Positions 5,645 to 10,481 of a DNA stretch of 53,091 bases are shown in pieces. Position 1 is the stretch's first letter, and every line of letters starts with the position of its first letter. Both the position numbers and the translations under genes were made by a program. This DNA is from Phycisphaerae bacterium (lineage in GTDB: Bacteria; Planctomycetota; Phycisphaerae; JAJVII01): the NCBI GenBank assembly GCA_022072085.1, contig JAJVII010000028.1:1-53091 (forward strand), written 5' to 3'. A model generated the notes under the pieces. That model had not been told where the DNA came from. It ran no database searches and saw only the letters and a program-made list of their open reading frames with translations.

Positions 5645-5672
5645 TTGACACTCTGTGCCCGTCGAATATACT
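5645..5672 (+). promoter_or_regulatory. Native tRNA-Cys promoter, now separated from its gene
   Basis: TTGACA (5645-5650), a 16-base spacer and TATACT (5667-5672) form a near-consensus promoter. Predicted initiation is 5-6 bases before the tRNA-Cys 5' end at 5684. Only the 5' half of the tRNA remains here, so transcription now runs into the integrated element. Confidence 0.7.
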
Positions 5673-5682
5673 CATCGTTTCC

Positions 5683-5727
5683 CGGCCGCGTAGCCAAGTG
5701 GACCAAGGCGACGGATTGCAAATCCGT
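5683..5727 (+). repeat. attL: left 45-bp direct repeat, 5' half of tRNA-Cys
   Basis: This is identical over 45 bases to 10281-10325. It covers the tRNA-Cys acceptor 5' strand, D-arm and the whole anticodon arm (loop TTGCAAA). Identity stops abruptly after TCCGT on both sides. That is the pattern left by a tyrosine integrase using an attachment core in the anticodon region of a tRNA gene. Confidence 0.9.
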
Positions 5728-6006
5728 AACAGCGAATCCGAAACCCATTCACAGTCAACACCTTGCGAAGATCGCCCTGGGCGTCTTGGCCTTCTGCTTG
5801 GCGCTCTTGCTGCGCAAGTCGCCCCCGCCGCCCCCGACCTGGCGGGGCTCCTGGCCGCCTGGCTTGCCCTGCCCGATCACGTCAAGGCGACGATTCAAAC
5901 GCTGGTCAGGGCGACGGTCACCGGCAACGGCGGGCCGGCTGGCGACCCAATGGCTCTGTCGGCCCCGACCGCCGGCGAAGCAAAATCCGAAAGTCAATCA
6001 TATTGA
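5683..6006 (+). pseudogene. Displaced 3' end of the integrase gene (C-terminal tail)
   Basis: The frame through the att core (RPRSQVDQGDGLQIR) is the same here as in the integrase at 8517. In the excised circle the integrase would run from codon 603 straight into the 92 sense codons 5728-6003, ending at TGA 6004-6006. The tail is protein-like, with a predicted amphipathic helix (DLAGLLAAWLALPDHVK followed by ATIQTLVRAT). From recollection this resembles the C-terminus of intact planctomycete integrases. The other frames are Arg/Ser-rich shadows. In the integrated state this piece lacks its own good start codon. It could be read as a fragment only by chance. Confidence 0.65.
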
Positions 6007-6041
6007 CTTCTAAGCCAATAACCCGATAGGATGAACTGAGC

Positions 6042-6293
6042 ATGGCCAAAGTCACCTTGACCCCGGAAGCGGCCGACGGGCTGGAAGACCTGCCCCTTGC
6101 GATTCATGCCCGCGTGTTGTCGCTGCTGGAGCGGCTGGCCAAGTGGCCGGCCGTCAGCGGGGCCAAGCCGCTGTCGGGGCGGCTGGCCGGGCGATACCGC
6201 CTTCGCACCGGGGATTACCGCGTGCAATTCCGGGTGCAAGGCCAGGCCATCATTGTCGAGAAGATCGGACACCGCGACAGGTTTTACGAGTGA
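6042..6293 (+). CDS. RelE/ParE-family toxin
   Basis: An 83-residue protein with the compact RelE/ParE fold pattern. An N-terminal strand (KVTLTPEAADGLEDL) leads to two helices with LLERLAKWP, then the core KPLSGRLAGRYRLRTGDYRVQF typical of mRNA-interferase-like toxins, and the C-terminal strand IIVEKIGHRDRFYE. The basic residues and terminal HRDRFYE fit a RelE-type RNase acting on ribosome-bound mRNA, though gyrase inhibition (ParE) cannot be excluded. It lies 9 bases before the antitoxin gene in the usual toxin-first HigBA/RelE-Xre order. TTGACT (6003-6008) and TAGGAT (6027-6032) upstream could be a weak promoter. Transcription from the captured tRNA-Cys promoter could also reach it. Confidence 0.85.
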   Translation: MAKVTLTPEAADGLEDLPLAIHARVLSLLERLAKWPAVSGAKPLSGRLAGRYRLRTGDYRVQFRVQGQAIIVEKIGHRDRFYE

Positions 6294-6302
6294 GGCGAAG
6301 CT

Positions 6303-6650
6303 ATGGTCAAGATCATCGAACTGGCCGGTAAGCGTTGGGCAATCATGCCCGAAAAGGACTACAAGCGGTTGTCCGCCCAGGCCGGGGCCGACGCCGGCGG
6401 GCCGGTCCTGCCCAAGCCCGACGCCGAAGGCAACTTCCCGGCCGTGGAGTATGCTCGCGTGTCGCTGGCCCGCAAGATCATCAAGGCCCGCCAACAGGCC
6501 GGGCTTACCCAGGCCGCCCTTGCCCGCCGCGCCGGCATTCGCCCGGAAACGCTGAATCGGATTGAGAAGGGAAAGACCTCACCCGACACGGCCACTATTG
6601 CCAAGATCGAGCGGGCCTTGGAAACGGTCGGGGCAACCGCTGAAACCTGA
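6303..6650 (+). CDS. Xre-family antitoxin
   Basis: A 115-residue partner of the RelE/ParE toxin. Residues about 1-55 form an N-terminal strand-rich part (VKIIELAGKRWAIMPEKDY) that probably contacts the toxin. Residues about 58-108 are a Cro/C1-type helix-turn-helix (KARQQAGLTQAALARRAGI, then RPETLNRIEKGK). The expected roles are neutralising the toxin in the cytoplasm and autorepression of the operon. It follows the toxin by 9 bases and is followed by a GC-rich hairpin at 6684-6705, so toxin and antitoxin form one unit inside the mobile element. Confidence 0.85.
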   Translation: MVKIIELAGKRWAIMPEKDYKRLSAQAGADAGGPVLPKPDAEGNFPAVEYARVSLARKIIKARQQAGLTQAALARRAGIRPETLNRIEKGKTSPDTATIAKIERALETVGATAET

Positions 6651-6683
6651 CCGCTTGCCCGCCGGAATCCCCAAGAACGCACC

Positions 6684-6705
6684 GGGCCGCCCAGGTTGGC
6701 GGCCC
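6684..6705 (+). terminator. Hairpin after the toxin-antitoxin pair
   Basis: A perfect 8-bp stem GGGCCGCC/GGCGGCCC with a 6-base loop lies 34 bases after the antitoxin stop. It is followed by GCGCTGTTT, a weak T run. Confidence 0.5.
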
Positions 6706-6790
6706 GCGCTGTTTCCGCCGCCGGCGGCGAGCGCTCCGCCCCGCGAATTGACCGGCGACGTCATCCGAAATTCTGGACGCACTGACAGAT

Positions 6791-6976
6791 TTGGAGTTGG
6801 ACTCGCTGAAGGCCCGCGCCGTGGCCGAAGCGCCCAACGATTTCGCCCGGGGAAAGTACGCGAAGGCCGACCCCCGCAAGGATCGGGCCTTGCGGACGGC
6901 GATGGTCAGGCTGTTGAAGGATGACGCGGGCCGGCGCGAAAATCCGACCAAGAACGGCCCCGACGGCAAGGAATGA
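6791..6976 (+). CDS. Small charged protein of unknown function
   Basis: A 61-residue frame that starts with TTG (no clear ribosome binding site) and ends 3 bases before the recombinase start, which suggests translational coupling. The open frame extends back to about 6752, so the true start may be a rarer codon upstream. Composition is highly charged (Lys, Arg, Asp, Glu), with one predicted helix, DRALRTAMVRLLKDDAG. No family is recognised. It could be an accessory directionality or DNA-binding factor for the recombinase, but only its position suggests that. Confidence 0.4.
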   Translation: MELDSLKARAVAEAPNDFARGKYAKADPRKDRALRTAMVRLLKDDAGRRENPTKNGPDGKE

Positions 6977-6979
6977 ACC

Positions 6980-7924
6980 GTGGCGGACTGGCGACACACA
7001 ACGCCGATGCAACTGCTGGACTCGCACTTGAACCGGCTGCCCGGCACAACGCGGGCCTACGCGGCTGACCTTCGGGCCTTTGCGGCGTTCCTGAAAGCCG
7101 ACTCGCCCCAAACGGCTGTCGAAATCATTGTCGGGGCGGAACGCGGAGCGGCGCGGCGAATGCTGGAAGATTTCAAGAACGCCAGCCGGGCCAAGGGCCT
7201 GAGCCTTGCCACGACGCGGCGGCGAGTGTCGAGCCTCTTGGGGCTGCTGGCCCTGGCCCATGAATTCGACATCATCCCGTGGGCGATTCGGATGAAACTG
7301 CCGGCGGCCGATCCGATCCGGGACACAGCCGGCCCGGGCCGGCCGGTTGTGGAGCGGATGATTGAATTGTGCCAGCAACGTGACGACGCCAAGGGGCGTC
7401 GGGACTACGCGATACTATGCCTGTTGTTCTACAACGCCCTGCGAGCCGGCGAAGTGCTGAGCCTTGACCTTCGCCACGTTGACTTGTCCGCCGGCGACGT
7501 GCTGATTGCGGCCAAGGCCCGCTGGGACCGGGTGCGCATGCCGATCCCGTTGGTCACGCGTCGGGCAATCGAGCAATGGCTACAGCATCGGGGCGACGCG
7601 CCCGGCCCGCTTTGGCTGTCAATGCAGCGGGGCGAGGGCGAGCGGCGACGGCTGACCTATCGTGGGCTGTATGAAATGGTGCGTACGTTGGGCAGACAGA
7701 CCGGGGCGAAGTGCTGGCCCCACGCCTTGCGGCACGCGGCGGCAACGTCGATGCTGAACCTGAGCAACGGCAATATCGGCTGGGGCCTGGCCCTGACCCG
7801 TCACCGCGACCCGAAGACATTCCTGGCCTACGCGGACCGGCGGGGAATGGCCATGCGGTCCGCCGTGGAACTGCTGGCCGGTGGCCGCCAATTCCGTTCG
7901 GAGCCGCCAACTGTTGAGAACTAG
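6980..7924 (+). CDS. XerC/XerD-like tyrosine recombinase
   Basis: A 314-residue protein of typical Xer length. An N-terminal core-binding domain (about 10-110) is followed by the catalytic domain. The catalytic set is Arg155 (NALRAGEV), probable Lys179, His248-x-x-Arg251 (HALRHAAA), His275 and nucleophile Tyr284 (FLAYADRR). It starts with GTG preceded by AAGGA at about 7 bases. It probably cuts and rejoins DNA within the element. It is the second recombinase of this small element beside the integrase at 8517, and its substrate is unknown. It could resolve element dimers or cooperate in integration. A C-terminal Arg/Pro tail is short and unremarkable. Confidence 0.85.
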   Translation: MADWRHTTPMQLLDSHLNRLPGTTRAYAADLRAFAAFLKADSPQTAVEIIVGAERGAARRMLEDFKNASRAKGLSLATTRRRVSSLLGLLALAHEFDIIPWAIRMKLPAADPIRDTAGPGRPVVERMIELCQQRDDAKGRRDYAILCLLFYNALRAGEVLSLDLRHVDLSAGDVLIAAKARWDRVRMPIPLVTRRAIEQWLQHRGDAPGPLWLSMQRGEGERRRLTYRGLYEMVRTLGRQTGAKCWPHALRHAAATSMLNLSNGNIGWGLALTRHRDPKTFLAYADRRGMAMRSAVELLAGGRQFRSEPPTVEN

Positions 7925-8237
7925 CGTTGTCAACACGATGACAGGGCGCAAAGCTTTACGGGGTCGGGATCGGCGGTCCCAAGGCAATGTCCGGTCCGCG
8001 TCGGCCAACTTGACGGTTTTTCGGGCCGTTGACGCGCAGTCAGGACATAAGTTAGTGACGCCCGCTGGCAGGCTGTGGGTCCTTCCTGGCGGTCCTGTCC
8101 CGATGACTGTTATGGACGCCGTGGCGGATACGCACAGACTTTCTTTCTCGCGGTCTTCGGATGGGCCAGACGCGCGGAGCTTGCCGGCCTGCCGGGCGGG
8201 GTGTAACGTGCATCGGCAATCACTGAAAGGGCGAATC
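7925..8237 (+). other. Intergenic region between the two recombinase units
   Basis: About 310 bases without a convincing gene. Two TTGAC motifs (about 8013 and 8028) may belong to promoters for the downstream Xre and integrase genes, but no well-spaced -10 box was found. The open frame that begins at 7881 has no ribosome binding site and is read here as the 5' extension of the small Xre gene. Confidence 0.35.
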
Positions 8238-8453
8238 ATGGCCAAGCGGAAGACGCTGGCGGATCGGCTGATCCAGGAAATCCGGCGAGCCGAGCGGGGC
8301 GGGCTGACCCGCTACCGATTGGCTGGGCTGTCGGGCGTATCCGAAAGCCAGCTATCCCGGATCGTCAACGGGCAGATTGTCCCGACGCTGACGACGGCTG
8401 AAAGGATCGTCAACGCCCTGAAGCTGCAAATCAGCATCGGCCCGAAGGAATAG
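8238..8453 (+). CDS. Small Xre-type helix-turn-helix protein
   Basis: A 71-residue DNA-binding protein consisting of one helix-turn-helix (about residues 20-65), with RYRLAGLSGVSESQLSRI as the turn and recognition helix and TLTTAERIVNALKL after it. The ATG at 8238 is chosen because GAAAGG precedes it and the domain begins there, although the frame is open to 7881. It lies 63 bases before the integrase, in the position of an excisionase or of a repressor controlling integrase expression. The fold is confident; the role is inferred. Confidence 0.75.
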   Translation: MAKRKTLADRLIQEIRRAERGGLTRYRLAGLSGVSESQLSRIVNGQIVPTLTTAERIVNALKLQISIGPKE

Positions 8454-8516
8454 CCTTGCATATTTACAAGTATCGGCTATGAATAGGGAAGGCGGAAAGC
8501 AAAAGGCAGGTGGATC

Positions 8517-10481
8517 ATGCGAGTCTTCCAATCGACCTACAAGGATCGGCACGGGCAGACGCGGCGGACCGCTCGATTCTACGTTGAATTCGCCGATCAT
8601 CGGGGCGGCCGGCGGCGCGTGCCGGGGCTGACGGATCGGCGGGCGACTGAAGCCATTGGCCGCAACATCGAAGCCCTTGTGCGATTCAAGGCAAGCGGCG
8701 AGGCCCTGCCCGTTGCCCTGACGAAGTGGATTGAGGCCTTGCCGGCCAAGCAACGCGAACCGTTGGCCCGTTGCGGGCTTCTGGACGCCGGCAAGGTGGC
8801 TGCGCTTCGCCCGCTGGCCGATCATGTTGAGGGCACGGCGGACGCCCCAGGTTGGCGGCAACATCTGGCAGGCAAGGGCAACACGTCCGGCCACGTTGAC
8901 CTTTCGGTTTCCCGCGTCAAGAGCATCATCGACGGCTGCCGATTCCGCTTCTGGTCTGACGTTTCGGCGAGCAAGGTGCTGAGCTTCCTTGACGGCCTTC
9001 GGGCGGACCGGGCCAAACTGGACGCCGCCGGCAAGCCGATGGTCGATGAAGCGTCGGGCCAGCCGATTACCCGGCCGGGGCTGTCGGCCGCGAGTTTCAA
9101 CTACTACCTGACCGCGTTCAAGAGCTTCTGCCGTTTCATGGTCAAGGACGGGCGGGCCACCGAAAGCCCGGTGGCGCACCTGGACGGGCTGAACGTGAAG
9201 ACGGATCGGCGGCATGATCGGCGGGCGCTGTCGGTCGATGAAATCCGCTGGCTGCTGGATGTGACGGAAGCCGGCCCGCTGCCCCAGGCGGGCCAGAGGC
9301 GCGAGCCCGTGACTCGATTCGGCATGGACGGACCGGCCAGGTCGATGCTCTATCGGCTGGCCGTCGAAACCGGGTTGCGGGCAGGTGAACTTCGCAGCTT
9401 GACGCGGGCGAGTTTCGACCTGACTGGTGAACCGGCGACAGTGACGGTCGCGGCGGGTTACTCAAAGCGCCGGCGGGCCGACGTGCTGCCCTTGCGGGCG
9501 GAGACGGCGGCGAAACTGGCGGGCTTCCTGTCGGCCGGTTTGAAGTTTCCCGATGCCGCCGCGTTCACCATGCCCCCCGCCGGGCACGTTGCCAGGATGT
9601 TCCGCGCAGACTTGGCAGACGCCCGCACCGCATGGCTGGCCGACGCCCCGACGCCCCAGGACCGGTGCGAGCGGGACAAGTCGTGTTGCCTGGAGTATGC
9701 CGATGCGGCTGGGCGGGTTGCCGACTTCCACGCCTTGCGGCACACGGCCGGCAGCCTGCTGGCCGCCGCTGGCGTTCATCCGAAGGTGGCCCAAAGCATC
9801 ATGCGGCATTCGACCATCGACCTGACCATGAGCCGCTACACGCACGTCTTCGCCGGGCAGGAAGCCGACGCCGTGGCGGACCTGCCCGACCTGTCGGCCC
9901 CGACGCGACAGGCGGCCGCGCTGACCGGGACCGACGGCCGCCGCATGGAAACCATCCCAAACGCCGTAGGAAGCCCCAGGATCAACGCGGACCGCCAAGG
10001 CCGACCTGTTTGGCCGCAGGCCGATTCGCGAGCCGCTGGCGGCCCTGTAGTGCCTCCGGGCGAGTCCCGCGACGGCGACGGTGGCCCGGACGATCCGCCG
10101 CCGGCTAGCGGATGCTTGCAGGAAAGCAAGGATTCCGTCTTGGCCGTTTGCTTGGCGCATCGGGGCGGATTCTCGACGACTGCTGCGGACTGTAACGGAC
10201 AGAGCGGCCGGGCGGGCCAAAGCAACAAGGCCCTTGAAAACAAAGGACAAACCGCTTATCGTGCTGCGTTTGACGCATCGCGGCCGCGTAGCCAAGTGGA
10301 CCAAGGCGACGGATTGCAAATCCGTTATCCGTGGGTTCGAATCCCACCGCGGCCTGTTCCCTCAATCCCCCGGCCACCAGGAGGGGCGCCGGCCGGCGTC
10401 CCAGTCGCGCTGCTCGTACTTCGCGCCGCGCTCGTCGCGGGTCAGGACGAGCTGGTGGGCTTTCAACCACAGGGCCTTTGA
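8517..10481 (+). CDS. int: Tyrosine integrase of the tRNA-Cys element, C-terminus altered by integration
   Basis: A site-specific integrase, 654 codons as integrated. Residues 1-110 form a Lys/Arg-rich arm-binding part and 130-230 a core-binding SAM-like domain. The catalytic domain holds Arg288 (ETGLRAGE), Lys317 (GYSKRRR), His405-x-x-Arg408 (FHALRHTA), His431 and nucleophile Tyr441 (MSRYTHV). A long low-complexity linker follows. Codons 589-603 are the att core itself, and the frame then continues through the rest of tRNA-Cys to a stop at 10479-10481 in flanking DNA. The last 51 residues are therefore not element-encoded. In the circle the gene would end in the tail at 5728-6006 (695 residues). 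All catalytic residues are upstream of the exchange. The linker DNA also contains the promoter of the rebuilt tRNA. ATG 8517 follows AAGGCAGG. Confidence 0.88.
   Translation: MRVFQSTYKDRHGQTRRTARFYVEFADHRGGRRRVPGLTDRRATEAIGRNIEALVRFKASGEALPVALTKWIEALPAKQREPLARCGLLDAGKVAALRPLADHVEGTADAPGWRQHLAGKGNTSGHVDLSVSRVKSIIDGCRFRFWSDVSASKVLSFLDGLRADRAKLDAAGKPMVDEASGQPITRPGLSAASFNYYLTAFKSFCRFMVKDGRATESPVAHLDGLNVKTDRRHDRRALSVDEIRWLLDVTEAGPLPQAGQRREPVTRFGMDGPARSMLYRLAVETGLRAGELRSLTRASFDLTGEPATVTVAAGYSKRRRADVLPLRAETAAKLAGFLSAGLKFPDAAAFTMPPAGHVARMFRADLADARTAWLADAPTPQDRCERDKSCCLEYADAAGRVADFHALRHTAGSLLAAAGVHPKVAQSIMRHSTIDLTMSRYTHVFAGQEADAVADLPDLSAPTRQAAALTGTDGRRMETIPNAVGSPRINADRQGRPVWPQADSRAAGGPVVPPGESRDGDGGPDDPPPASGCLQESKDSVLAVCLAHRGGFSTTAADCNGQSGRAGQSNKALENKGQTAYRAAFDASRPRSQVDQGDGLQIRYPWVRIPPRPVPSIPRPPGGAPAGVPVALLVLRAALVAGQDELVGFQPQGL
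10234..10262 (+). promoter_or_regulatory. Element-borne replacement promoter for tRNA-Cys
   Basis: TTGAAA (10234-10239), a 17-base spacer and TATCGT (10257-10262) end 19 bases before the rebuilt tRNA-Cys. This DNA lies inside the integrase coding sequence and comes from the element. The native promoter stayed at 5645-5672. Confidence 0.45.
10281..10325 (+). repeat. attR: right 45-bp direct repeat, overlapping tRNA-Cys and int
   Basis: This is identical to 5683-5727. It supplies the 5' half of the functional tRNA-Cys and also codons 589-603 of the integrase. Confidence 0.9.
10282..10355 (+). tRNA. tRNA-Cys (anticodon GCA)
   Basis: A complete 74-base cloverleaf. The acceptor GGCCGCG/CGCGGCC, the anticodon stem ACGGA/TCCGT with loop TTGCAAA, and the T-arm GTGGG-TTCGAAT-CCCAC are all perfectly paired. 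Discriminator base T73 is the known identity base of cysteine tRNAs. CCA is not encoded. It is rebuilt by the integrated element: bases up to 10325 lie in the duplicated repeat and the 3' half is chromosomal. The 3' end is 6 bases from the convergent gene ending at 10362. Confidence 0.95.

Follow-up and report, generated by a model that had tools for sequence, protein, structure and literature searches.

A planctomycete integrative element with its attachment site inside the integrase gene and a conserved C-terminal hairpin that is exchanged on integration

We analyzed a 53,091-nt stretch of DNA from a Phycisphaerae bacterium (contig JAJVII010000028.1 of assembly GCA_022072085.1, positions 1 to 53,091; hereafter the window), which contains an integrative element inserted in a tRNA-Cys gene. 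As read from the sequence, the whole attachment site of this element (attP), core and putative arm sites included, lies inside its integrase gene (int), with the catalytic domain on one side and a conserved helical hairpin at the C-terminus on the other. Integration swaps the C-terminus of the integrase and leaves the hairpin at the left attachment site (attL), far from the rest of the gene, which runs through the right attachment site (attR). We regard this anatomy by itself as practically certain. The main features are as follows.

5728-10325: integrative element of 4,598 bp (4.6 kb), inserted in tRNA-Cys(GCA)
5683..5727, forward strand: attL core, one copy of the direct repeat; displaced 5′ half of tRNA-Cys, sharing the reading frame of the tail
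5728..6006, forward strand: circle-only C-terminus of the integrase (the tail), 92 residues plus stop; apart from int in the chromosome, with homologous tails at the attL of relatives
5833..5916, forward strand: conserved helical-hairpin motif of the tail alignment, PDLAGLLAAWLALPDHVKATIQTLVRAT
8517..10481, forward strand: integrase gene in its chromosomal reading, 654 residues, PF00589 at residues 278-445
10281..10325, forward strand: attR core, formed by int codons 589-603 and at the same time the 5′ part of the regenerated tRNA-Cys
10282..10355, forward strand: regenerated tRNA-Cys(GCA) from the tRNA call, its 5′ half now derived from the element

The two ends of the element are marked by an exact 45-bp direct repeat (98% over 48 nt), which corresponds to the 5′ part of tRNA-Cys up to the anticodon stem-loop. 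With an intact tRNA at one end, a tRNA-fragment repeat at the other and an integrase aboard, the element is a tRNA-targeting genomic island. The displaced tRNA piece is the 5′ half, and such islands are the rarer type (159 of 3919; PMC4383910). A third copy of the 45-bp core was not found in the genome. Therefore, the tRNA-Cys at 10282-10355 is probably the only one of this genome.

The enzyme is a tyrosine recombinase of the phage integrase family, with the PF00589 domain and the R-K-H-R-H-Y residues (R288, K317, H405, R408, H431 and Y441 in the alignment), all of which are upstream of the core. The matches of the integrase in phage records were only distant. Codons 1-588 of the chromosomal gene are unique, codons 589-603 are the core, and codons 604-654 are read from the tRNA 3′ half and host DNA. 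The left and right copies of the core share one int reading frame. When 10325 is joined to 5728, as in the excised circle, the frame runs on for 603 + 92 = 695 codons to a TGA stop at 6004-6006. In other words, attP lies within a tyrosine int, downstream of the catalytic Tyr, and the frame is open in both states, which is the layout of the integrase of phage Mx8 discussed below. An earlier note on this DNA, made from the sequence alone, had assigned the 45-bp core to int codons 589-603 with the attL copy in the same frame, and had described an uninterrupted frame of 695 residues in the circle, a chromosomal end read through tRNA-Cys and host DNA up to 10481, and catalytic residues, including Tyr441, upstream of the exchange. 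Our coordinates agreed with it on each of these points.

A genome search revealed that a sister element (in G002) had a segment 51% identical to the 92-residue tail over 57 residues. This segment lay 5.3 kb upstream, on the same strand, of an integrase 62% identical to that of the window, which places the tail at the other end of the sister element. With a limit of E ≤ 0.05 per genome, at which about 20 chance matches are expected, a profile of 28 positions made from nine tails matched 260 of the 397 genomes of the class. It also matched some genomes from other classes of the phylum. The consensus across the class was DLxxVxxAWPxLPxxxRxxIxxMV. The W of the motif and the L three residues on were invariant in 79 of 79 tails. 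Among 82 strong tail matches, 70 had a half or whole tRNA upstream of the tail, and in 67 it was inside the tail's open frame. The distance from the tRNA piece to the tail was mostly 67-183 nt, most commonly about 100 nt. As a control, 1098 random 450-nt windows of the same loci gave a tRNA-like match in 58 cases.

The tail seemed to be maintained as a protein. Its nucleotide differences were distributed as 28, 17 and 55% over codon positions 1, 2 and 3, and 7.2 residue changes were seen where 12.0 were expected. Both the codon-position bias and the deficit of residue changes imply that the hairpin is selected as protein. The 60 nt preceding the tail showed no codon signal (32/32/37); this linker looks like attP DNA that needs only to avoid stop codons. 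We also considered the tail as mere conserved arm-site DNA, and the codon-position test ruled this out. AlphaFold folded the window tail into a helical hairpin (residues 36-47 and 50-65, with a predicted local distance difference test score, pLDDT, of about 91 over most of it). Tails were 51-92 residues long in every element measured, and the chromosomal ends that replace them ranged from about 0 to 360 residues (median 9). Tail endings were variable, comprised mostly polar residues, extended 1-31 positions past the motif and had no common LAA-type end. The tail had no credible family in Pfam and no match among PDB sequences, and none was found in plasmids. Two genomes (G170 and G265) had 11 and 14 tail copies each, many of them at contig ends, which suggests many related elements or repeated tails.

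The join of int, core and tail was in frame in 20 of 21 elements whose two ends share a contig. It was also in frame in all 12 elements of a further set, which was drawn from one IMG/VR contig and from named genomes, nearly all of them of Planctomycetota. Combined, 32 of 33 joins were in frame, compared with 11 expected (binomial P about 1e-14 at 1/3 per element; this value assumes independence, and the elements are partly related, e.g. L051 and L126). These counts leave out secondary repeats, and many of the loci were chosen with the help of tails. We repeated the survey blind to tails, with a tRNA-like att repeat of at least 28 nt; nine of the 25 loci came from integrase-only searches, and contig L254, whose 301-nt repeat is not tRNA-like, was left out. 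All 25 integrases with an upstream tRNA-like repeat had a tail 67-149 nt beyond the core, and 24 of them were in frame. From the catalytic domain to the core, the int frame was stop-free in 21 of 21 elements, while the other forward frames were open in 4 and 1. From the core to the tail, it was stop-free in 20 of 21, compared with 5 and 2 for the other two forward frames. Stops in the other frames were present even in elements with 42-48% GC.

The tRNA targets included Cys, Leu, Arg, Gln, Asp, Thr, SeC, Gly, Ser, Lys and others. The core was read by int either in sense or in antisense, and all three antisense tRNA frames occurred. Therefore, the frame is not dictated by the tRNA. Peptides such as GFEPxT, GIRTHD and DSNPxP, which end planctomycete integrase ORFs (open reading frames), are antisense tRNA read through, that is, integrated-state ends.

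Intact circle-form genes were also found. The ends of contig JAQTSY010000011.1 (L192/L263; 15,590 bp) overlap exactly over 127 bp, which we read as a sign that the contig is a closed circle with a length of 15,463 bp; no tRNA gene was called on it. A single ORF of this contig encodes an integrase in which the catalytic domain is followed by a 50-bp antisense half of tRNA-Arg(CCT) and then by the tail. This contig carries type I restriction-modification genes and is binned in a Paceibacterota genome; it is probably a mis-binned planctomycete element. The IMG/VR contig L254 has a second intact int-core-tail ORF and L109 a third, the latter with an upstream frameshift. In the intact integrase of G028, the hairpin directly follows the catalytic domain and no core intervenes, which may be the ancestral state. 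For this enzyme of G028, AlphaFold predicted a fold like that of lambda Int (best PDB match 1z1b, E 3.7e-12) and placed the hairpin after a low-confidence linker, which is probably flexible in the model. On the sequence side, the earlier note had made its case depend on similar tails in homologous intact integrases and on a coding signal in the tail region of relatives. Both turned out in its favor: the tail is conserved just past the core at the far end (attL) of relatives and intact in JAQTSY010000011.1 and L254, and it carries the codon-position signal.

The principle itself is already known. In Myxococcus phage Mx8, attP is inside the tyrosine int, after the catalytic domain (Tojo 1996 and Magrini 1999, as cited in PMC6070905 and PMC4701971). 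According to these papers, integration of Mx8 replaces 112 C-terminal residues by 13 and keeps the catalytic domain, and the swapped integrase is described as less active and altered in specificity. The element in the window resembles Mx8 in that a tyrosine int carries attP and integration exchanges its C-terminus but spares the catalytic domain. In the deposited ORF of Mx8, too, the frame runs through an antisense-tRNA-like stretch (TGLEPV). By reading, and without a formal profile search, we saw no W..LP hairpin motif in the Mx8 C-terminus. Unlike in Mx8, the tail here is a conserved family across the phylum and is joined to many tRNA sites. In streptococcal integrative and conjugative elements (ICEs) in rumA, attR is within the integrase gene and the C-terminus encoded after excision is a different one (PMC4701971); however, these have serine integrases and a non-tRNA target, whereas here a tyrosine integrase uses a tRNA.

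Two other systems share a part of this layout. SSV-type archaeal integrases also have att within int, and their gene is split on integration into N and C fragments and disabled (PMC8371274), whereas the catalytic domain here is wholly upstream of the core. In the integration-dependent immunity of mycobacteriophages, attP is within the repressor gene and integration removes a degradation tag (PMC9262239). Both that system and ours change a C-terminus, but here attP is in int and the tails share no tag-like end. The authors of Islander already listed integrases that extend across attP, namely those of Mx8 and SSV (PMC4383910). The view of the earlier note that the tail swap is unlike known systems was not supported, since Mx8 does likewise (PMC6070905, PMC4701971); what stood of its interpretation is that the tail is real integrase coding sequence under protein-level selection. 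For an integrase gene that embeds att and has its C-terminus swapped, Mx8 and the rumA ICEs provide clear precedents. New are the conserved, unclassified tail family, its many tRNA targets and its spread through Planctomycetota. We found no description of this tail family in the open-licence literature searched.

The reading that we favor, with moderate confidence, adds a functional step to the anatomy: loss of the tail would damp or redirect the enzyme and thereby stabilise the integrated state. In the circle, int reads through the core into the hairpin, and this full-length form would be the integrating enzyme. Recombination at the anticodon loop leaves the hairpin at attL and gives the chromosomal int a host-encoded end. 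Because selection appears to act on the circle form, the hairpin most likely aids the integrative reaction; it would be used by the circle-encoded enzyme only, most likely in helping to assemble or activate the integrative complex. After integration, newly made enzyme would lack the hairpin, and its activity would be reduced or redirected. Integration would thus work as a latch, and excision would depend on either the tail-less enzyme plus a helper or an intact integrase from another source. The layout in dozens of related elements suggests a widespread built-in switch of the kind known from phage Mx8. The idea of the earlier note that the tail swap is a sensor of the element's own state is a plausible hypothesis.

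Three points weigh against this reading. The effect on direction or stability is carried over from Mx8 by analogy. One element, L052 (in G015; cores at 9090 and 19359), has an out-of-frame join, the sole one, in which int and tail are both open through the core. We checked it for a tandem element and found no third core, and it remains an exception; an indel, an assembly error or real decay is possible. Finally, the distances of the catalytic domains and of the tails were uncorrelated (Mantel r = -0.27, with a 26-residue tail that is noisy), and the tail thus showed no sign of evolving in close step with the integrase to which it belongs. Elements may also exchange tails with one another. For the alignments and models, the tail and the remainder of the integrase were modelled separately, and MAFFT did not place tail fragments against full integrases.

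A wider reading is tentative and, in our judgment, somewhat doubtful. The hairpin would be a state reporter of a large Planctomycetota integrase family, present only in circle-made enzyme and distinguishing the integrative from the excisive reaction. Under this state-reporter reading, hairpins might be exchanged between elements because they are stored opposite the int end while integrated.

It is also conceivable, though unlikely, that the integrase is suicidal, i.e. that no activity is possible without the tail, the chromosomal form is inert, and the element can excise only when another copy supplies an intact integrase. The arrangement would then be a compact att-plus-int module and not a switch. 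The purifying selection on the tail beside unconstrained chromosomal ends fits this view, and SSV-type archaeal elements do persist with split integrases (PMC8371274). However, the catalytic domain, the residues just past the Tyr and the linker were open in every integrated copy examined, and the tail-swapped Mx8 enzyme is described as altered yet active (PMC6070905, PMC4701971). We consider it still less probable that the swap is simply tolerated with little effect, attP having come to overlap int, the hairpin serving folding or stability and both forms being about equal. The low-confidence linker of the G028 model would suit such a loosely joined hairpin, but a useless one would not be expected to keep its invariant Trp in every tail and to be in frame in nearly all elements.

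That the tail is a degradation tag whose removal on integration stabilises the integrase, as in mycobacteriophage immunity, is very unlikely. In those phages, integration trims the tagged protein and the integrase itself is ssrA-like tagged (PMC9262239), but the tail endings vary as noted above, and the conserved part is a helical hairpin and not a terminal tag. A separate small protein at the left end, joined in frame by chance in a GC-rich genome, gains something from the frequent long spurious ORFs of the window and from a tail frame that is open upstream of the core too, from 5260, yet the in-frame joins, the stops in the other frames and the fused ORF of the natural circular contig already contradict it on sequence grounds and make it exceedingly improbable.

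What had been a curiosity, known mainly from Mx8, emerges here as a design that recurs in no fewer than 32 elements and at over ten tRNA species, with all three antisense tRNA frames in use. This set opens the way to comparative tests of directional control by tyrosine integrases, whether in place of a separate directionality factor or in addition to one. Searches with the tail can also locate attL ends and the boundaries of elements in Planctomycetota. Moreover, the tRNA-like peptides at the ends of planctomycete integrases are explained as belonging to the integrated state and not to the native C-terminus; integrases cloned from chromosomes would therefore lack their real C-terminus.

The remaining features concern the cargo, the arm sites and the promoters.

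5645..5672, forward strand: sigma-70-like promoter TTGACA-16-TATACT (11/12 matches), directly preceding the displaced 5′ half of the tRNA
5782..5804, forward strand: putative P′-arm integrase-binding site, a 23-nt copy (91%) of 10136-10158, repeat family D6
6003-6032: promoter-like site over the stop codon of the circle-form int, ahead of the ParE-like toxin gene
6042..6293, forward strand: ParE-family toxin (PF05016), left-end cargo
6303..6650, forward strand: helix-turn-helix (HTH) antitoxin-like protein (PF01381; HipB/Y4mF-like below cut-off)
6980..7924, forward strand: second tyrosine recombinase, 314 residues, Xer-like (PF00589; below Xer equivalog cut-offs)
8238..8453, forward strand: small HTH protein just upstream of int (PF01381)
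10136..10158, forward strand: putative P-arm integrase-binding site, repeat family D6
10234..10262, forward strand: promoter-like site TTGAAA-17-TATCGT inside the int ORF, from the promoter scan

The 23-nt repeats are putative arm-type sites, and similar repeat pairs flank the cores in relatives. The small HTH protein at 8238..8453 is a candidate regulator or directionality factor. The Xer-like recombinase shares the 4.6-kb element with int. Three promoter-like sites were found in the region, compared with 0.5 expected. The one at 5645..5672 is probably the original host promoter of tRNA-Cys, stranded at attL, and the one at 10234..10262 is placed such that it could drive the regenerated tRNA-Cys. 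As the element replaces the tRNA 5′ half together with its upstream region, this apparently single tRNA-Cys seems to draw its promoter from within the int coding sequence.

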